Shown here: positions 33,722-42,920 of the stretch, piece by piece
Numbering within the stretch: the stretch's first letter is position 1
Layout of the letters: each line of letters opens with the position of its first letter
Assembly (NCBI GenBank): GCA_947495915.1
Contig: CANMAW010000006.1
Coordinates: 234,882 to 294,147, forward strand
Reading direction: 5' to 3'
Source of the DNA: Maribacter algarum (ex Lu et al. 2025) (nom. illeg.)
Lineage (GTDB): Bacteria > Bacteroidota > Bacteroidia > Flavobacteriales > Flavobacteriaceae
DNA length: 59,266 bases
Program-made: the position numbers and the translations under genes
The notes under the pieces: generated by a model
Seen by the model: only the letters and a program-made list of their open reading frames with translations
The model's database searches: none
What the model was told of the DNA's origin: nothing

Positions 33722-33751
33722 TTTGCGAAAAGAAAATAAGTTTTATTTTTA
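33722..33751 (+). promoter_or_regulatory. Predicted promoter of the histidine operon
   Basis: TTTG at 33722-33725 and TATTTTTA at 33744-33751 fit the Bacteroidota -33/-7 pair with an 18-base spacer and one mismatch in the -7 element (final A for G). It ends 8 bases before the leader-peptide ATG. Confidence 0.4.
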
Positions 33752-33759
33752 CGATAATT

Positions 33760-33813
33760 ATGAGAAACACAAATACACATCATCATCTTTTAACTGGCTA
33801 TCAAGCGAGGTAA
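33760..33813 (+). CDS. hisL: Histidine operon leader peptide
   Basis: A 17-codon reading frame encodes MRNTNTHHHLLTGYQAR. Codons 7-9 are three consecutive CAT (His) codons at 33778-33786. It precedes the complete his operon, with a terminator hairpin 29 bases past its stop codon. This is the classical arrangement for ribosome-mediated attenuation: scarcity of charged tRNA-His should stall the ribosome on the His codons. The final codons (YQAR and stop) also form the 5' strand of an antiterminator (see attenuator entry). I infer translation from this logic; no ribosome-binding sequence is visible, as is normal in this phylum. Confidence 0.85.
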   Translation: MRNTNTHHHLLTGYQAR

Positions 33814-33877
33814 AGGTGTATTGTAGTATTACAAAATATTTAAAACCCGTTTGAGCAATCAAACGGGTTTTACTTTT
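33801..33877 (+). promoter_or_regulatory. his attenuator: antiterminator and terminator
   Basis: The terminator is a perfect 13-bp stem (AAAACCCGTTTGA at 33842-33854 with TCAAACGGGTTTT at 33859-33871) closed by a GCAA tetraloop and followed by a T-rich tail. The competing pairing is TCAAGCGAGGT (33801-33811) with ACCCGTTTGA (33845-33854): 10 base pairs including one G-U pair and one bulged A. It uses most of the terminator 5' arm, so the two structures exclude each other. The upstream strand lies inside the last leader codons: a ribosome at the stop codon hides it (termination), and one stalled at the His codons leaves it free (readthrough). Confidence 0.85.
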
Positions 33878-33914
33878 AAATCAAGTTGGTTGTCTCAAGC
33901 ACAAAAATTGCAAA

Positions 33915-34772
33915 ATGACTAAAATTAGAATTGCCATTCAAAAATCAGGAAGACTAAACGAAGACTCTCTTAAAATTTTAAAAGATTGTGGAATTTCAAT
34001 TGACAATGGTAAAGATCAATTGAAAGCTAGCTCTAGAAATTTCCCCATGGAAGTTTTCTTTTTACGAAATGGAGATATACCACAATACTTAAGAGACGGT
34101 GTAGTTGATATTGCTATCATTGGAGAAAATGTACTTATCGAAAAAGGTACTGATATTGCTGTAGTTGAAAAACTAGGTTTTTCAAAGTGTAAAGTGTCTT
34201 TAGCCATACCTAAAGGTATTAAGTATGACTCTATAAATGATTTTCAAGGAAAACGAATTGCAACTTCATACCCAAATACGGTGAACAATTATCTCAAAGA
34301 AAAGGGGGTACAAGCAGATCTGCATATCATTAGTGGTTCGGTAGAAATTGCACCTAATATTGGTTTAGCAGATGCCATTTGCGACATTGTATCTAGCGGT
34401 AGTACTTTATTTAAAAACAATTTAAAGGAAGTTGAAGTGATGCTAACCAGTGAAGCGGTGTTGGCCGTTTCTCCGCAAATTTCTGAAGAACGCAATACAT
34501 TACTTAAGAAGTTACAGTTTAGAATTCAATCGGTATTAAAAGCTAGGCAATCAAAATATGTGTTGTTGAACGCTCCGAATGAAAAACTTGATCAAGTTTT
34601 GAGCTTGTTACCAGGAATGCGCAGTCCAACGGTTTTGCCTTTAGCAGAAGAAGGTTGGAGTTCTGTACATACGGTAATCAATAAAGATAAATTCTGGGAA
34701 GTAATTGACGAGCTTAAACTCGCAGGAGCTGAAGGAATATTAGTATGCCCAATTGAAAAAATGGTGCTATAA
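33915..34772 (+). CDS. hisG: ATP phosphoribosyltransferase, long form
   Basis: This 285-residue enzyme joins ATP and PRPP in the first step of histidine synthesis. The two periplasmic-binding-like catalytic lobes are clear: IAIQKSGRLNEDSLKILKDC at the start, GVVDIAIIGENVLIE near residue 61, and the PRPP loop DAICDIVSSGSTLFKNN near 155. Residues about 210-285 form the ACT-like regulatory domain (LPGMRSPTVLPLAEEGWSSV), where histidine binds for feedback inhibition, so this is the hexameric long form that needs no HisZ. It is the first structural gene after the attenuator. Confidence 0.97.
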   Translation: MTKIRIAIQKSGRLNEDSLKILKDCGISIDNGKDQLKASSRNFPMEVFFLRNGDIPQYLRDGVVDIAIIGENVLIEKGTDIAVVEKLGFSKCKVSLAIPKGIKYDSINDFQGKRIATSYPNTVNNYLKEKGVQADLHIISGSVEIAPNIGLADAICDIVSSGSTLFKNNLKEVEVMLTSEAVLAVSPQISEERNTLLKKLQFRIQSVLKARQSKYVLLNAPNEKLDQVLSLLPGMRSPTVLPLAEEGWSSVHTVINKDKFWEVIDELKLAGAEGILVCPIEKMVL

Positions 34773-34780
34773 AATTTAAG

Positions 34781-35224
34781 ATGGCAAAAGCGTTTAAAAT
34801 CACGTTAATTCCCCACAACCAAATGGAAACGATTCTTCCATTAGTGGTTGAGTTGAACAACGGCGCCATAGAATTAAAACTACTTCAAAAACGTCTGAAG
34901 GCTATGCTTGAAATGGGCGGCTATGAATGCATTGGGGTTTATGATGGTGAAGAATTAATAGGTATTTGTGGTCTATGGATTTTAAACAAACTATATGCTG
35001 GCAAACATGTTGAACCCGATAATGTTTTTATTAAAGAGAAGTACAGAAGTGCTGGGGTAGGCCAATTAATGATTGACTATTTATTCCAATATGCCAAAGA
35101 AATCGGATGCGAAGGCACAGAAGTAAACTGTTATGTGCAAAATGAAAAAGGACGAAAGTTTTGGGAAAAACAAGGATATAAACCCTTAGCCGTACACTTC
35201 TTTAAAAACTTTGATACCGAATAA
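34781..35224 (+). CDS. GNAT-family acetyltransferase within the his operon
   Basis: This 147-residue protein has the GNAT fold; the acetyl-CoA loop is KYRSAGVGQLMIDYLF (R-x-x-G-x-G, around residues 89-104), with a C-terminal WEKQGYKPLAVHFFKNF. It lies 8 bases after hisG and its stop overlaps the hisD start by one base (TAATG), so it is translated as part of the operon. It is not a known histidine-pathway enzyme. The substrate is unknown; it might act on an intermediate, an amino acid or a protein. See findings for the shared pattern of inserted genes. Confidence 0.85.
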   Translation: MAKAFKITLIPHNQMETILPLVVELNNGAIELKLLQKRLKAMLEMGGYECIGVYDGEELIGICGLWILNKLYAGKHVEPDNVFIKEKYRSAGVGQLMIDYLFQYAKEIGCEGTEVNCYVQNEKGRKFWEKQGYKPLAVHFFKNFDTE

Positions 35225-36507
35225 TGAAAAAAATATACAAACCTAGTAAAGAAGATTGGAAAGCTTTATTAAAGCGACCAACCCAAACCGTAAGCGATAT
35301 TGAAAATGGGGTGGAAGCAATTTTTAATGAAGTACAATCTCATGGAGATGATACGCTTCGAAAATATACCGAGAAATTTGACAAAGTTATATTAGATCAG
35401 CTTGCAGTTTCGACAGAAGAAATACAAGCTGCTTCAAGTTTGGTTTCTAAAAACTTAAAAGAAGCTATTCAGCTAGCCAAATCTAATATCGAAAAATTTC
35501 ACCAAGCTCAAGCTACATCGAAAGTAGAAGTTGAAACAATGTCGGGCGTGCTATGTTGGCAAGAGAAAAGACCGATTCAGAAAGTAGGACTTTATATTCC
35601 AGGTGGAACGGCACCGCTATTTTCAACAATTTTGATGCTGGCAGTTCCGGCTACTATTGCGGGTTGTTCTGAAATAGTGTTATGTACACCCCCCGATGAG
35701 AATGCAGAAATTAATCCTGCAATTTTATATACAGCTGCGCTTTGCGGTATTAAGCAGATTTACAAAGTAGGTGGAATTCAAGCCATCGCCGCGATGACCT
35801 TTGGCACAGTAACCATACCTAAAGTTTATAAAATTTTTGGTCCTGGTAATCAGTATGTAACTGTAGCGAAGCAAATAGCAACAAAACATGGAGTGGCTAT
35901 CGATATGCCCGCAGGGCCCAGTGAATTGTTAGTTGTAGCTGACGATTCTGCTAATGCAAGTTTTGTTGCTTCAGATTTACTAAGCCAAGCAGAACACGGT
36001 ATTGACAGTCAAGTAATATTAGTTTCAACTTCAAAAGACTTTATGCTGTTAGTAGAAGATGAAGTGATGAAACAACTTCAAGATTTACCCCGCAAACAGA
36101 TAGCTCAAAAGGCCATTGAAAATAGCAAACTTATTTATGTTGAAAATGATCAAATTGCGATTGATTTGATCAATGAATATGGGCCAGAGCACTTCATAGT
36201 TTGCGTTGAAAATGAAGCGTTTTATTTAGAAAACACTTTGAATGCAGGTTCTGTTTTTGTTGGCAACTACACCCCTGAAAGTGCCGGCGATTATGCGTCA
36301 GGCACTAATCATACCTTGCCAACAAATGGTTATGCAAAGCAGTATAGCGGCGTTAACTTAGATGCCTTCATGAAAAGTATGACCTTTCAAAAAATAAACA
36401 AAGAAGGCATACAAAATATAGGAAAGGCCATTGAGCTTATGGCAGAAGCAGAAGGTTTGCAAGCTCATAAAAATGCGGTGAGTCTGAGGTTAAAAAGTTT
36501 GAAGTAA
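35224..36507 (+). CDS. hisD: Histidinol dehydrogenase
   Basis: This 427-residue zinc enzyme oxidises histidinol to histidine with two NAD in the last steps of the pathway. Family blocks in order are VGLYIPGGTAPLFSTILMLA near residue 120, KVGGIQAIAAMTFGT near 180, and KIFGPGNQYVTVAKQ near 202. The block AGPSELLVVADDSANASFVA lies near 227, followed by LLSQAEHGIDSQVILV holding zinc ligands, and later YGPEHFIVC and SGTNHTLPTNGYAKQYSGVN. Start is coupled to the preceding GNAT stop (TAATG). Length is normal. Confidence 0.97.
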   Translation: MKKIYKPSKEDWKALLKRPTQTVSDIENGVEAIFNEVQSHGDDTLRKYTEKFDKVILDQLAVSTEEIQAASSLVSKNLKEAIQLAKSNIEKFHQAQATSKVEVETMSGVLCWQEKRPIQKVGLYIPGGTAPLFSTILMLAVPATIAGCSEIVLCTPPDENAEINPAILYTAALCGIKQIYKVGGIQAIAAMTFGTVTIPKVYKIFGPGNQYVTVAKQIATKHGVAIDMPAGPSELLVVADDSANASFVASDLLSQAEHGIDSQVILVSTSKDFMLLVEDEVMKQLQDLPRKQIAQKAIENSKLIYVENDQIAIDLINEYGPEHFIVCVENEAFYLENTLNAGSVFVGNYTPESAGDYASGTNHTLPTNGYAKQYSGVNLDAFMKSMTFQKINKEGIQNIGKAIELMAEAEGLQAHKNAVSLRLKSLK

Positions 36508-36540
36508 CACCAGCCTATAAAAGGCAAATGATAGTATAGA

Positions 36541-37590
36541 ATGAGTTTTAATTTACAAAATAGCATTAGAGAAAACGTAAAAGCTTTGAAACCCTATTCA
36601 TCAGCTAGAGATGAGTATGTTTCCGATGGTTCAGAAATGATTTTTTTAGATGCTAATGAAAATCCGTTTGAGAATGGGGTAAACCGATATCCTGATCCAC
36701 AACAACGCAGTTTAAAAGCGGTACTTGCAGATCAAAAGGGTATTCATGCTGAAAACATCCTTTTAGGAAATGGAAGTGATGAAGTATTAGATTTGCTATT
36801 CCGTGCCTTTTGTGAGCCTCACGTTGATAAGGTTATTTCGTTACCGCCAACCTATGGCATGTATAAAGTATTGGCAGCAATTAATACCATTGAAAACAAA
36901 GAAATACAATTAACCAAAGCATTTCAACCCGATGTACAGAAGATTCTAGATGTGACAGATGATACCAGTAAAATACTCTTTCTTTGCTCACCTAACAATC
37001 CTACCGGAAATAGTTTTTCTGAGGAAAGCATCGTGGCTCTGCTAAAGAAATTTAGCGGGTTAGTGGTGATTGACGAAGCGTATATTGACTTTGCTGCAAA
37101 CGAAAGTTGGGTGGCCAGACTGCACGATTTTCCGAATTTAATTGTAACGCAAACGCTTTCTAAGGCGTACGGAATGGCGGGTATACGTCTAGGAATATGC
37201 ATGGCATCTAAAGAAATAATTGCAGTACTGAACAAAATTAAACCACCATATAATGTTAATGGTTTAACACAACTGAAAGCATTAGAGCGTGTATTGGCAA
37301 CCAAAACTGTAGCTGACGAAGTAAAGCACATTCTCTATGAAAGAGAGCAGCTCATAATTGAATTACGGCAGATATCGTTTATCGAAACTATTTACCCAAC
37401 TGACGCTAACTTTGTTTTAGTAAAAGTAGATGACGCTGATAAAAGGTACCAACAGCTTCTAAAAAAAGGAATTGTAATTCGAAATAGAAGCACCCAACCT
37501 TTATGTGAGAATACCTTGCGATTGACGATTGGTACAGCTTCCGAGAATGAAAAATTGATTAAGACTTTAAACGAAATAACAAATGAGTAA
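36541..37590 (+). CDS. hisC: Histidinol-phosphate aminotransferase
   Basis: This 349-residue PLP enzyme of fold type I transfers the amino group from glutamate to imidazole acetol phosphate. [17 protein letters not shown] at the start, [17 protein letters not shown] near 85, [12 protein letters not shown] near 149, and the Schiff-base lysine in [16 protein letters not shown] near 209 are visible. The C-terminal Arg block [15 protein letters not shown] binds the substrate phosphate or carboxylate. It lies 33 bases after hisD and overlaps hisB by 8 bases. Confidence 0.97.
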
Positions 37591-38722
37591 AAAGAAAGTC
37601 CTTTTTATTGATAGAGATGGTACGATTATTAAAGAAACCGTTGATGAGCAAATCGACGCTTTTGACAAAATGATCTTCTATCCTAAAGCATTTACCTATT
37701 TGAGTAAAATCGCGGCAGAACTTGATTTTGAGTTGGTAATGATTACCAACCAAGATGGGTTAGGTACCGATGTATTTCCAGAAGAATCATTTTGGCCTGT
37801 TCACAATTTTATCTTGAAATCATTTGAGAATGAAGGTGTTGTTTTTGATAAGGTCTTTTTAGATCGAACATTTCCACATGAAAATGCAAATACAAGAAAA
37901 CCAGGAACAGGACTGCTTACCGAATACTTTTCTGAGGATTATGATCTTGAAAATTCTTTTGTTATTGGTGACCGTTTAACTGATATTGAATTGGCGAAGA
38001 ATTTAGGAGCGAAAGGAATTTTCATTAATGATGAGACAAATTTAGGTACTGCCGAAATTACAGTGAAGCGCGATGAATTAGATGCTGTAATTGCTTTGGA
38101 AAGTAACGATTGGCAAAAAATTTATGAGTTTCTAAAACTAGATGCTCGAACTGCTGAAATTCATAGAAAAACGAATGAAACAGATATTCGCATTAAACTA
38201 AACCTAGATGGTACAGGTAAGAGTGATATAAAAACTGGATTGGCTTTTTTCGATCACATGCTTGATCAACTGGCACGTCATGGTCAAATGGATTTAACCA
38301 TTAATGTAGATGGCGATTTAGAAGTTGATGAGCACCATACTATCGAAGATACAGCAATTGCATTAGGCGAATTGTTTCATAAAGCACTAGGAAATAAATT
38401 GGGAATTGAGCGTTACGGTTTTTGTTTACCCATGGACGATTGTTTGGCACAAGTTGCTATTGATTTCGGTGGAAGAAATTGGCTCGTTTGGGATGCTGAT
38501 TTTAAACGAGAAAAAGTTGGTGACATGCCCACCGAAATGTTTTATCACTTTTTTAAATCGTTTACCGATGGTGCAAAAGCAAATTTGAATATTAAGGCCG
38601 AAGGAACAAATGAGCATCATAAAATTGAAGCCATTTTTAAAGCTTTTGCTAAATCGATAAAAATGTCAGTGAAGCGCGACCTTGAAAAAATGGTATTGCC
38701 AAGCACAAAAGGGGTATTATGA
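37583..38722 (+). CDS. hisB: Bifunctional histidinol-phosphatase / imidazoleglycerol-phosphate dehydratase
   Basis: This 379-residue fusion carries out two pathway steps. The N-terminal HAD phosphatase (about 1-165) has the DxD motif FIDRDGTII and GTGLLTEYF then [19 protein letters not shown]. The C-terminal dehydratase (about 190-379) has [29 protein letters not shown] and [17 protein letters not shown], the three manganese-binding His-rich blocks. This fusion is the E. coli-type arrangement and is common in Bacteroidota. Its start overlaps hisC by 8 bases and its stop overlaps hisH by 4. Confidence 0.97.
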
Positions 38723-39300
38723 AGATTGTAATTATAAACTATGGCGCGGGTAATATTCAAAGCATCAAATTTGCCATACGGCGATTAGGTTATGAAGCGG
38801 TTTTAAGTAACGATGTAGAAGAAATAAAATCTGCTGATAAAGTTATATTCCCAGGTGTTGGTGAAGCGAGTAGTGCCATGTCAAAACTTAAAGATAGTAC
38901 GTTAGACACACTTATTCCTAAATTGAAACAACCTGTTTTAGGTATTTGTTTGGGCATGCAATTAATGTGTAATTCTTCGGAAGAGGGCGATACCAAAGGC
39001 TTGGGTATCTTTGATGTTGATGTGGTTAAGTTTTCGAATCAAGTAAAAGTGCCACAGATTGGCTGGAATCAGATTACAGATTTGCGCGCTGGCTTATTTA
39101 AAAACATCGGTGAGAAAGAGTACATCTATTTGGTGCATAGTTTTTATGCGCCAATTTGTACTGCTACTATTGCTACTGCTACTTATGAAATGAAATTTAG
39201 TGCAGCCCTACAAAAAAATAACTTTTACGGCACTCAGTTTCACCCTGAAAAAAGTAGTTCGGTTGGTGAGCAATTGCTGAAAAATTTCTTGACTTTATAA
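38719..39300 (+). CDS. hisH: Imidazole glycerol phosphate synthase, glutaminase subunit
   Basis: This 193-residue class I glutamine amidotransferase supplies ammonia to HisF. The nucleophile is Cys77 in GICLGMQ, and the dyad is His175 and Glu177 in QFHPEKSS. Oxyanion and inter-domain elements such as [10 protein letters not shown] near the start are intact. It overlaps hisB by 4 bases and the next GNAT gene by one (TAATG). Its partner hisF lies three genes downstream. Confidence 0.97.
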
Positions 39301-39719
39301 TGAAAAATCAGTTCAAACTTTCAACAGATAAGCAATTGATTGATATCGATTTTGTTCATTTCAATATTGAAAAATCATATTGGGGTATGGGGCGTACGAA
39401 AGAGCAAACTGTAAAAACCCTTGAAAATTCCCTTTGTTTTGGAATGTATAATAACCATGAGCAGATCGGGTTTGCGCGAGTAGTAACAGACTATATTTTC
39501 TTCGGATATTTTATGGATGTCATCATTGCAGAAAACTATCAAGGTCAGGGCCTGGGAAAAAAATTGGTAACGTATATGTTAGAACACGAGGTTATCAAAA
39601 ATTTGCAAACTCTTGCTTTAAAAACTAAGGATGCGCATGAATTTTATGAGAAATATGAGTTCAAAAAAATAGGTGATTCAGCTTTGTGGATGTCTATTGA
39701 TAAACAAAAATTAAATTAA
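39300..39719 (+). CDS. Second GNAT-family acetyltransferase within the his operon
   Basis: This 139-residue GNAT protein has the acetyl-CoA loop [18 protein letters not shown] (Q-x-x-G-x-G/A form, around residues 79-96) and an adjacent block [16 protein letters not shown]. Its start overlaps the hisH stop (TAATG) and hisA follows after 4 bases, so it is embedded in the operon. It is not closely similar by eye to the first GNAT gene in the operon. Substrate unknown. Confidence 0.85.
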
Positions 39720-39723
39720 ACGT

Positions 39724-40452
39724 ATGAGAATCATACCTGCAATTGACCTCATTGATGGTCAATGTGTTCGACTTTCTAAAGGCGATTACAATACCAAGAA
39801 AGTGTATAATCAAAATCCTTTGGAGGTTGCCAAAGCTTTTGAAGCACATGGAATTGAACATTTGCATTTAGTAGATTTAGATGGCGCCAAATCAAAGCAC
39901 ATTGTAAATCACAAGGTGTTGTATGATATAGCCAATCAAACTACATTAAAAATTGATTTTGGTGGTGGGTTGAAATCTAATGAAGATTTACGTATTGCCT
40001 TTGAAAATGGTGCGCAACAAATTACTGGAGGAAGTATAGCTGTTAAAGATGCAGAAACATTTACCAATTGGTTAAATATATATGGTGCCGATAAGATCAT
40101 ACTCGGCGCTGATGCCTTAGATGAAAAAGTGGCGGTTTCAGGTTGGCAAGAAGAATCAAAAGAAGAATTGCTTCCCTTTATAAAGACGTATCATGAAAAT
40201 GGTATTGCATACGTTATTTGTACAGACATCAGTAAAGACGGCATGTTACAGGGACCTTCATTTGCATTGTACGAAAAAATACTAAAGCAAACCCCTGAAT
40301 TAAAACTTATCGCTTCTGGTGGCATATCTAAATTTGATGAGCTGCCGCAGTTGGCAGAAATGGGTTGTGAGGGTACCATTATTGGAAAGGCGATTTATGA
40401 AAATAAAATTTCACTAAAGCAATTAGAAAATTATATTGTATCCAATGGATAA
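39724..40452 (+). CDS. hisA: ProFAR isomerase
   Basis: This 242-residue TIM barrel opens the ribose of 5'-ProFAR in the fourth pathway step by an Amadori rearrangement. The catalytic Asp8 is in [14 protein letters not shown], and the second acid lies in [10 protein letters not shown] near residue 128. Phosphate-binding turns include FGGGLKS and [11 protein letters not shown]. It is a half-barrel duplication like HisF. It overlaps the following DinB gene by 8 bases. Confidence 0.96.
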
Positions 40453-40963
40453 TGAAAAATTACTTGTTGAAGAACTAGTGAAAAATGCCCTTTTTAGAAT
40501 GGATGAGAGCACTCGAATGATACGAAAAAGTTTGTTGGAAATTTCTGAGGAAGAGGTGTGGTTAAAGCCGAATGAGTCTTTAAATAGTATTGCGAATTTA
40601 CTACTTCACCTTAAAGGAAATATTACACAATACATACTATCTTCTTTAGGAGAAAAGGAAGACGAACGCGATAGAGATTCTGAGTTTAATCATCGTGGCG
40701 GAAAAACAAAATCTGAACTTTTTGAGACACTTGAAAACACTGTAGATGAAGCCAAACGTGTAATATTTGATGCGAGCGTTGATGATCTAATTAAAATAAG
40801 ATCAGTACAAGGCTTTTCATTTTCAGGTGTTGGTGTAGTACTTCACGCAGTTGAACATTATTCGTACCATACTGGGCAGATTGCTTTTTGGGTAAAACAA
40901 TTGAAAAATACTGATCTTGGTTTTTATGACAGTATCGACTTAAATATTAAAAATAAAAAATAG
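40445..40963 (+). CDS. DinB-family protein within the his operon
   Basis: This 172-residue protein is a DinB/DUF1572-like four-helix bundle. The first metal-ligand helix is [20 protein letters not shown] and the C-terminal ligands are in [20 protein letters not shown] (H-x-x-x-H). The ATG at 40445 overlaps hisA by 8 bases; a TTG three codons upstream is also open but less likely. Its TAG stop shares a base with the hisF GTG. It does not belong to the histidine pathway by known biochemistry; a thiol-transferase or metal-dependent role is possible. Confidence 0.8.
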
Positions 40964-41718
40964 TGCTTTCAAAACGAATTATTCCTTGTTTAGATATTAA
41001 AGATGGCCGAACGGTAAAGGGGGTTAACTTTGTAGACTTAAGAGACGCTGGTGATCCTGTAGAACTTGCTGAATTATATAGTCAAGCAGGTGCTGATGAA
41101 CTGGTTTTTCTAGATATTTCAGCTACAGAGCAAAAACGAAAAACATTAGCCGATTTGGTATATCACGTTGCAGAGAAAGTGAATATTCCGTTTACAGTGG
41201 GTGGCGGAATTTCTTCTGTCGAAGATGTCGATTTGTTGTTGCAAAATGGAGCGGATAAAGTATCGATTAATTCCTCTGCAGTAAAGAATCCGCAACTTAT
41301 AAATGACTTGGTTGCAAAATTTGGCTCTCAATGTATTGTAGTTGCTATTGATGCGAAACAGATTGATGGAGAATGGATTGTACATTTGGTAGGAGGAAAA
41401 GTACCGACAGAACTACGATTGTTTGACTGGGCAAAAGAAGTGGAACAACGAGGTGCAGGTGAAATACTATTTACCTCAATGGATAATGATGGAACAAAAG
41501 ACGGATTTGCAAATTCTGCCCTGGCAAGATTGTCAGTCGAATTAAATATTCCTATTATTGCCTCTGGTGGTGCTGGCAATATGCAACACTTCATAGATAC
41601 CTTTATAGAAGGAAAAGCAGACGCCGCCTTGGCTGCAAGTGTTTTTCATTTTAAAGAAATCGAAATAGTAGAGTTAAAAAAAGAATTAAAAAACAACGGT
41701 ATACCCGTACGTATCTAA
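40963..41718 (+). CDS. hisF: Imidazole glycerol phosphate synthase, cyclase subunit
   Basis: This 251-residue TIM barrel takes ammonia from HisH and closes the imidazole ring, also releasing AICAR. Catalytic Asp11 is in [18 protein letters not shown] and Asp130 in [13 protein letters not shown]. The phosphate loops [11 protein letters not shown] and [11 protein letters not shown] are intact. It starts with GTG overlapping the DinB stop. Length is standard. Confidence 0.97.
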
Positions 41719-41733
41719 ATTAAAGACCAACTA

Positions 41734-42315
41734 TTGATACGAGCAACAAAGAATGATAAAAAATTAGTAGTAGCTATCTTAATAGAGGCTTTTGAGCCTT
41801 TAAAAGAAGATAACTCTATTAATCTTGTAGTAAAACAAGATTCTAAACGTGTAGAACGCATGCAGATATTGATGGAATATTTATTTGATAAAGCCATGCG
41901 TACAGGTGAAATATTCTTGTCTGATAATCGGGCAAGTTGTTTATTAATCACATATGCACAACGTGATACCTTTAGTTTTGCAAAGCTATTCTCGACCTTA
42001 CGCTTGGCTACACGCTGTATAGGCATTGAAAGAGTTGGCAAAATTTTACAAAGACAGAAAATTGTACAACGCAATTATCCAGAGGGCAATTATATTAGAC
42101 CAATGATATTTGCAGTTAAAAATGAGTATAAAGGAACGGTGACGGCAGCCAAACTAATTATGCAGGTGTTTAAAGATTTTAAAGATAATGAGCTGCCTGT
42201 TATTGTAGATACAGCATCTGAAGATCATGTTCGCTTATATCAAAAATTTGGTTTAAAGATTTTCAATAAAGAAAAAGAATTGGGCTTCCCCATTTATCTT
42301 TTGAGAATGAATTAG
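41734..42315 (+). CDS. Third acetyltransferase-like (GNAT fold) protein within the his operon
   Basis: This 193-residue protein resembles a GNAT fold but is diverged: the acetyl-CoA loop region around NEYKGTVTAAKLIMQVFKDF lacks the usual R/Q-x-x-G-x-G/A pattern, while the C-terminal YQKFGLKIFNKEKELGFP fits the last GNAT helix and strand. Cofactor use is therefore uncertain. It begins with TTG, 15 bases after hisF, and hisIE follows 5 bases later. The earliest ATG inside is after residue 40, so TTG is the better start. Function unknown. Confidence 0.7.
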   Translation: MIRATKNDKKLVVAILIEAFEPLKEDNSINLVVKQDSKRVERMQILMEYLFDKAMRTGEIFLSDNRASCLLITYAQRDTFSFAKLFSTLRLATRCIGIERVGKILQRQKIVQRNYPEGNYIRPMIFAVKNEYKGTVTAAKLIMQVFKDFKDNELPVIVDTASEDHVRLYQKFGLKIFNKEKELGFPIYLLRMN

Positions 42316-42320
42316 AAAAA

Positions 42321-42920
42321 ATGACAATAGACTTTAAAAAAAATTCAGACGGATTAGTACCTGCGATAGTTCAAGATGCAAGCACCAAAAATGTTTTGAT
42401 GCTGGGTTATATGAATGAAGAGGCTTTTCAAAAAACACAAGAAACTAAAAAAGTAACTTTCTATAGTCGCTCAAAAAAAAGATTGTGGACGAAAGGTGAG
42501 GAGAGTGGCAATTTCTTAAATCTTGTCGAAATCAAGAATGACTGTGATAAAGATTCTTTATTGATTATGGTAAATCCAGTCGGGCCTACTTGCCACACCG
42601 GAAGTGACACCTGTTGGAATGAAAATAATGAACCTAATTTCGGATTCTTTTCGCAATTAGAACAAGTGATAAACCAACGAAGAACTGCAGCAGATGGCAG
42701 CTCTTCGTATGTGGCTTCATTGTTCGAAAAGGGAATCAATAAGATTGCTCAAAAAGTCGGTGAGGAAGCGGTTGAAACGGTTATTGAAGCTAAAGATGAT
42801 AACGACGATCTCTTCTTATACGAGAGCGCAGATTTATTGTTTCACTACCTTATATTGCTTCAAGCTAAAGGCTTCACCTTAAAAGATATTGAGTCCGAAT
42901 TGCGAAAACGTCATAAGTAA
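42321..42920 (+). CDS. hisIE: Bifunctional phosphoribosyl-AMP cyclohydrolase / phosphoribosyl-ATP pyrophosphatase
   Basis: This 199-residue fusion does steps 2 and 3 of the pathway. The HisI half (1-~110) has GYMNEEAFQKTQ, YSRSKKRLWTKGEESGN and the zinc ligands in DCDKDSLLIMV and CHTGSDTCW. The HisE half (~110-199) is the MazG-like helical bundle with KVGEEAVETVIEAKDDND. It is the last gene of the operon and converges with the GIN-domain gene with 2 bases between stops. No clear terminator is seen after it. Confidence 0.97.
   Translation: MTIDFKKNSDGLVPAIVQDASTKNVLMLGYMNEEAFQKTQETKKVTFYSRSKKRLWTKGEESGNFLNLVEIKNDCDKDSLLIMVNPVGPTCHTGSDTCWNENNEPNFGFFSQLEQVINQRRTAADGSSSYVASLFEKGINKIAQKVGEEAVETVIEAKDDNDDLFLYESADLLFHYLILLQAKGFTLKDIESELRKRHK

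Follow-up and report, generated by a model that had tools for sequence, protein, structure and literature searches.

The his operon of enterobacteria is preceded by an attenuator made up of a leader peptide with His codons, a hairpin over these codons, an antiterminator and a terminator, all placed before hisG. A 2004 FEMS paper by Vitreschak and colleagues on attenuation in proteobacteria reportedly mentions Bacteroidetes/Chlorobi in its abstract. The accessible part of a 2010 report states that no leader-peptide system was known outside Proteobacteria and Actinobacteria before its own finding in Firmicutes (PMC2965389), and the his attenuators of Firmicutes, which resemble the locus described here in having a leader peptide with 3-5 His codons, a terminator and an antiterminator, belong to another phylum and come without mention of a fifth strand in the excerpts available (PMC9413887). 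In the available text of a survey of his genes in the superphylum of Bacteroidota, attenuation is named once, for E. coli and Salmonella (PMC8305728). The closest published object is found in Flavobacterium psychrophilum, for which the accessible sections of a 2021 study report strong indications that amino-acid operons are controlled by attenuation at leader peptides and a structured element in the hisG 5' region that is conserved in other genera of Flavobacteriaceae and has no Rfam hit (PMC9723704). The element of our locus is in all probability the same one, for which those sections give neither an anatomy nor a fifth strand (PMC9723704). A preliminary description of our locus had left it undecided whether this version of his attenuation was described in Bacteroidota; that flavobacteria use such attenuation, and that hisG is preceded by a conserved element, has already been suggested in print (PMC9723704). 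In the titles and abstract openings surveyed from the open-licence literature, no description of a fifth strand was found.

The window, by which we mean the whole stretch of 59,266 nucleotides that was analysed, carries before hisG a region that is probably a ribosome-mediated transcription attenuator of the his operon with a fifth strand, and conservation and predicted pairing indicate that a ribosome-mediated his attenuator is very probably present ahead of hisG. It has the leader peptide, His-codon hairpin, antiterminator and terminator in common with the enterobacterial attenuator (RF00514, His_leader), and differs from it in having its antiterminator strand within the last codons of the leader and a further strand, strand 5, before hisG. 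No match to RF00514 at the gathering score (49 bits) was found in the window, and among 12 relatives two sub-threshold matches were recorded (33.9 bits in L141 and 32 bits in L155); the element works like His_leader but is not filed as a member of RF00514. The features of the region and of the operon are the following.

33744..33751, + strand: candidate -7 promoter box TATTTTTA, a TAnnTTTG-type sequence with its end 8 nt upstream of the leader ATG
33760..33813, + strand: leader peptide frame MRNTNTHHHLLTGYQAR, 17 codons, with TAA stop at 33811-33813
33772..33830, + strand: His-codon hairpin, a putative pause/protector hairpin, 33772-33779 with 33822-33830 and 33784-33790 with 33812-33818, enclosing strand 2
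33778..33786, + strand: His sensor, a conserved run of three consecutive His codons, CAT CAT CAT
33801..33811, + strand: strand 2, the antiterminator strand, formed by the last leader codons and the first base of the stop codon
33841..33872, + strand: intrinsic terminator, with strand 3 (5' arm), loop, strand 4 (3' arm) and U-rich tail
33887..33900, + strand: strand 5, UGGUUGUCUCAAGC, with complementarity to the apex of the terminator, ending 14 nt before the hisG AUG
33915..34772, + strand: hisG, which encodes ATP phosphoribosyltransferase and opens the operon (TIGR00070, 191 bits; TIGR03455)
35224..42920, + strand: hisD, hisC, hisB (bifunctional), hisH, hisA, hisF and hisIE-like, assigned by NCBIfam except hisIE-like
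42321..42920, + strand: hisIE-like, named by eye

The host genome measures 4.17 Mb. When the hisG of the window is compared with the best 80 of at least 564 relatives, the closest is that of Maribacter algarum, at 92% identity, these 80 coming from Flavobacteriaceae genera or Bacteroidota bins. Two GNAT acetyltransferases and a DinB/DUF1572 protein are encoded inside the operon (34781-35224, 39300-39719 and 40448-40963), the three insertions sitting between hisG and hisD, between hisH and hisA, and between hisA and hisF. The leader itself is a short frame rich in the cognate codon ahead of the operon and predicted to be translated, as expected of a his-type attenuator. A His-rich leader precedes hisG in 80 of these 80 related loci (the best 80 of at least 564), with 14-18 codons, a run of 2-4 His and a distance from leader stop to hisG of 69-198 nt (median 102). 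Conservation of the His run, named in the preliminary description as a check on its proposal, was borne out, at least three consecutive His being present in 77 of the 80 loci, with HQHH in L040, YHH in L056 and HRHH in L063 as the exceptions. The leader ends in QA plus one residue in 74 of the 80, and in three others, L008, L016 and L019, a TAG stop stands in place of the Q codon CAG, by which QAR is lost from the peptide; the GGCGAGG strand is kept despite this premature stop, which points to a constraint on the RNA, not on the peptide. The leader region of the window is also predicted to fold with a z of -7.3, none of 200 shuffles being as stable. For a wider sample, 80 further hisG-bearing Bacteroidota genomes were taken, in four sets of 20 from the window's own family, its order, its class and the phylum at large, chosen to spread over genera (the family set has several from one genus), and a leader was defined as an ATG frame of 7-45 codons upstream of hisG with at least three His within six codons. 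Such a leader was found in 63 of the 80 genomes, against 0/80 on the reverse strand and about 0.8/80 expected from dinucleotide shuffles, and the remaining 17 loci, which gave no leader, were dropped from further comparison. By rank, it occurs in 20/20 genomes of the family, 19/20 of the order, 19/20 of the class and 5/20 of the other phylum members, and the sole order genome without it is about 0.6 Mb in size.

Between the leader frame and the first gene lies the predicted intrinsic terminator, whose stem AAAACCCGTTTGA/TCAAACGGGTTTT (33842-33854 with 33859-33871) is a perfect 13 bp closed by a GCAA loop at 33855-33858, a 14th pair being possible between 33841 and 33872. Strand 2, UCAAGCG(A)GGU (33801-33811), can pair with ACCCGUUUGA (33845-33854) in 10 bp with one G-U and one bulged A, and since both structures share strand 3, antiterminator and terminator are mutually exclusive, as in his-type attenuators. 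The 17-codon frame, the His codons, the 13-bp stem with its GCAA loop and the 10-bp competing pairing had all been placed in the preliminary description, and each of them was found at the same coordinates; its reading of them as a his attenuator gains support from the conserved His run, the terminator and the competing strand in the last leader codons. A terminator was found for 139 of 144 leaders (none was found in L177, L183, L187, L190 and L191, which were dropped), and in an alignment of 58 loci, consisting of the window and 57 family loci with significant strand 5, 11 terminator stem pairs are intact in 58/58. Compensatory changes had been anticipated in both stems, and the outcome depends on the distance of comparison. 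Within the family the antiterminator varies too little to show any (of 580 cells, 95.0% are paired, and compensatory changes are absent), and the terminator shows one double change, in one pair of the 58-locus alignment. Between families the leader end and the terminator arm, as predicted pairing partners, do change in step: the fit of own compared with permuted partners was -13.62 versus -11.35 kcal/mol in the order (119 loci), -12.19 versus -8.99 in the order minus the own family (18 loci) and -11.18 versus -7.86 kcal/mol in other orders (20 loci), with 0/20,000 permutations as good in each case. When 38 more distant loci were compared individually with shuffled leader ends, the antiterminator reached p <= 0.05 in 23 and did not do so in 15. 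In loci with AGA or AGC as last codon (Flagellimonas/Muricauda, Arenibacter, Cellulophaga) one strand 2:3 pair is lost, and inspection by eye suggests that this is offset by the stop codon and the next bases (UAGAA) pairing with UUCUA before the arm. Three loci of the class outside the order (L189, L192, L194) have an antiterminator strand that runs through the leader stop codon, for example GGGTAAGC against GCTTACCC in L189.

The two parts of the region that had been absent from the preliminary description are strand 5 and the His-codon hairpin. The element had there been described as compact and two-state and as lacking a separate pause hairpin, and this last point is contradicted by the 58-locus alignment, in which RNAalifold pairs, besides the terminator, the last His codon and the following codons with a stretch after the stop. 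In this His-codon hairpin, the cells in which both partners have changed number 43, the shuffle mean being 19.9 (sd 3.6) with 0/500 shuffles as high, a count that kinship among the aligned sequences can inflate; the covariation score (0.220 versus 0.150) and the share of paired cells (85.8% versus 81.9%) likewise exceed those of all 500 shuffles, and all slid versions of the window fold score lower. Of the 20 pairs, 8 are doubly changed, about as many as in shuffles (7.5), and a small inner helix (33794-33799 with 33804-33809) shows no double change. Compensatory changes thus support the predicted hairpin over the His codons, and such a hairpin over the regulatory codons, for which a pausing role would be predicted, belongs to the his-type plan.

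Strand 5 can pair with the terminator apex GUUUGAGCAAUCA (33849-33861), loop included, in 13 pairs with 2 G-U and a bulged U at 33893, and the predicted duplex of the window has -15.3 kcal/mol (p = 0.004, dinucleotide shuffles). A terminator was found in 119 order loci; it is followed by 20 nt or more in 116 of them and by less in 3. Among the 116, the pairing is significant in 83 at 5% FDR (dinucleotide shuffles) and not in the other 33, and it spans the whole terminator loop in 79 of the 83. Paired with its own apex, strand 5 reaches -11.2, compared with -7.65 for permuted apices (0/20,000 as good, 40 apex classes). The most telling base is the second of the loop, which is unpaired in the terminator: in a masked test, in which the tested base was hidden while the strand 5 register was set for each sequence, it faces a Watson-Crick partner in strand 5 in 55 of 57 readable loci (A-T 26, C-G 15, T-A 13, G-C 1), the permuted mean being 20.2 with 0/5,000 as good. 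These locus counts are pseudo-replicated, since the hisG tree shows just 3 changes of the second loop base, and 3 of its partner, among 37 testable family rows, too few to give a paired-lineage test power; further loop changes outside that tree were seen by eye in L149, L155 and families f5, f7 and f15. Ten apex positions had enough loci for the masked test, and nine lay above permutation at 41/5,000 or better, position -5 not being significant (490/5,000). Counted within the alignment, where strand 5 is poorly aligned and has a gap column, three measures stand above shuffles and two at shuffle level. In the divergent family represented by L162, a wholly different terminator CTGCCGAAGTGTTTT is accompanied by a matching strand 5. 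The putative fifth strand and the terminator apex therefore change in matched fashion across the order. Outside the order, 18 of 20 loci gave no nominal strand 5 match, the two others being L194 (p 0.01) and L199 (p 0.02) in simple shuffles without correction. Strand 5 ends 13-16 nt before hisG in 60 of the 83 loci, with a mode of 14 nt (36 loci). The predicted stabilities of the 3:5 and 3:4 hairpins differ by a median of 0.8 kcal/mol in the 83 loci (2.4 in the window), and 3:5 is at least as stable in 34 of the 83, figures that are a description and not a test, since these loci were selected for pairing.

The start of the leader mRNA may lie close to the frame. In 71 of 81 loci, the window and L001-L080, a TAnnTTTG-like box (TA plus 3/4) has its end 6-8 nt ahead of the leader ATG, against a dinucleotide-shuffle mean of 3.9, and a second cluster of 39 matches ends 13-15 nt before it. 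Two other -7-like boxes in the window score equally with TATTTTTA, a sigma-70 promoter scan gave sites no commoner than in shuffles, and many other genomes of the order have a -7-like box 17-35 nt upstream of the leader ATG. In the accessible sections of the F. psychrophilum study the flavobacterial -7 box is given as TAnnTTTG and leaderless mRNAs as 5.5% (PMC9723704). Because the candidate box ends so close to the leader ATG, the leader mRNA may be nearly leaderless in this clade.

Folding calculations on the window reproduce part of the classical scheme. In RNA reaching to 33858, the 2:3 pairing forms when the His codons are covered (-16.6) and nothing forms if it is the stop region that is covered, both in agreement with the classical scheme; 2:3 also forms with no ribosome at all (-17.8). 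In the complete mRNA with a stalled ribosome, 3:4 is slightly preferred over 2:3 (-31.9 versus -31.0), and in the mRNA to 33960 without a ribosome the minimum-energy fold keeps 3:4, forcing 3:5 at a cost of 6.4 kcal/mol. The formation of 2:3 without a ribosome, together with 3:4 in the complete mRNA, implies in these models that the switch must rely on the order of folding. The modelled fold of the full mRNA also allows UGAGAAAC, with which the leader frame starts, a predicted pairing with a portion of strand 5 (33761-33895).

The mechanism that we propose would begin with transcription of the leader frame and formation of the His-codon hairpin (1:1'). With charged His-tRNA plentiful, the ribosome would reach the stop codon and cover strand 2, leaving strand 3 to pair with strand 4, and transcription would stop. 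When His-tRNA is short, the ribosome would stall on the His codons and open the His-codon hairpin, strand 2 would pair with strand 3, and transcription would enter hisG; the attenuator would in this way respond to histidine. Strand 5 is transcribed after the terminator and can therefore have no effect on termination, so that it can act only in readthrough mRNA, either in cis, by 3:5 replacing 3:4, or as the target of terminated leader RNA. Its site before the hisG start and the near-equal stability of 3:5 and 3:4 favour a role in hisG translation, and strand 5 may, though we are less sure of this, control that translation: present in readthrough mRNA only, it would form 3:5 and hamper hisG translation whenever strand 2 leaves strand 3 free. 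In that case the leader ribosome would govern the use of existing mRNA as well as termination. A helix that ends 14 nt before the AUG might, however, fail to block initiation.

Other amino-acid leaders offer a comparison. In 37 upstream regions of ilvD, thrA, pheA and trpE from 11 genomes, 26 leaders were found, of which 22 have a terminator and 14 leave 20 nt or more for the test, and none of the 14 had a strand 5 at p 0.05, the lowest value being 0.073; strand 5 as a general feature of flavobacterial attenuators was accordingly rejected. In the own genome, the trp leader was the only testable one (strand 5 p 1.0); the phe leader has its terminator 6 nt from the gene, the thr leader gave no terminator, and upstream of ilvD no leader was recognised. 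The leader peptides seen in this genome are MKTRNSNTWWWNNSRQSS (L251, trpE), MTKQYFYNRFFFYFFFLRS (L240, pheA) and a Thr-rich ...FTTATTTPLG (L234, thrA), and similar Trp, Phe and Thr leaders, with a few Ile/Val leaders, occur in other Flavobacteriales.

How strand 5 should be understood depends on several competing explanations. The region could be a plain classical attenuator in which the strand 5 pairing is real and has no regulatory role, being for instance a remnant or a means of mRNA stabilisation. Attenuation seems to work without strand 5, which many loci do not show (not significant in 33/116 of the order, no nominal match in 18/20 from other orders), and all 14 testable trp, phe, thr and ilv leaders lack it at p 0.05; yet a remnant would not be expected to follow loop changes, and the match of a loop base unpaired in the terminator in 55/57 loci and the 13-16 nt spacing to the hisG AUG in 60/83 speak for a function, which makes this explanation rather doubtful. 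Alternatively, terminated leader RNA, which would be abundant when histidine is plentiful, could use the apex of its hairpin to pair in trans with the 5' region of hisG in readthrough mRNA. The complementarity does take in the exposed loop, and a precedent exists in rnTrpL of Sinorhizobium meliloti, an attenuator RNA beginning at the leader ATG whose terminated product acts on other RNA, destabilising trpDC mRNA in trans; according to the accessible text (PMC7298713) it senses Trp and has its target in a different operon, whereas the complementary site here lies in the same transcript. The same complementarity exists in cis, however, and a cofold of the leader with the 5'UTR of the window did not choose the strand 5 pairing. 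The 12-mer, moreover, occurs in 3 of 6 genomes of one genus of the family, once in each and only before hisG, so that no second perfect target is seen in those three genomes, and a degenerate search of the own genome for strand 5 targets returned 7 places, one being the hisG site, against 3 for a reversed control. Action in trans is, on balance, unlikely.

Two further explanations concern the attenuator as a whole. A sub-threshold Rfam match in the window (RF00515, 41.1 bits, E 1.6e-4, gathering score 54) could suggest a PyrR-binding RNA under PRPP/pyrimidine control in place of a His sensor, but no match up to E 0.1 appeared in 12 relatives (in a search with a larger set and stricter filters than that of the window), and the conserved His codons and the operon content point to histidine; a PyrR element, being sub-threshold, confined to the window and absent from the 12 relatives, is highly improbable and was rejected. 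Chance, in the form of an ordinary terminator beside an unrelated short frame, might be invoked for an A+T-rich region where short frames and hairpins are common, but it is refuted by conservation and runs counter to the leader fold z, the own-versus-permuted fit of strands 2 and 3 and the leader counts against the reverse strand and shuffles, and we regard it as hardly credible. For strand 5 we tentatively consider it possible that the attenuator has a dual output, strand 3 reporting the charging of His-tRNA to two effectors: paired with strand 4 it would end transcription, paired with strand 5 it would close the hisG start on escaped transcripts, and strand 2, freed by a stalled leader ribosome, would draw it away from both. 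If this is true, the leader ribosome would keep controlling existing mRNA, which is impossible for classical transcription attenuation.

How closely ribosomes trail RNA polymerase in Bacteroidota is, to our knowledge, not yet established. Shine-Dalgarno sequences are described as absent from flavobacteria in the accessible sections of the F. psychrophilum study (PMC9723704). A his attenuator in nearly every sampled member of the class would mean that the ribosome reaches the leader before the polymerase has passed about 90 nt further, and since it would have to arrive that early, the his attenuator may serve as a natural reporter of coupling in these bacteria. Strand 5, kept through changes of the terminator loop and placed mostly 13-16 nt before hisG, suggests in addition that the attenuator may have a second output.
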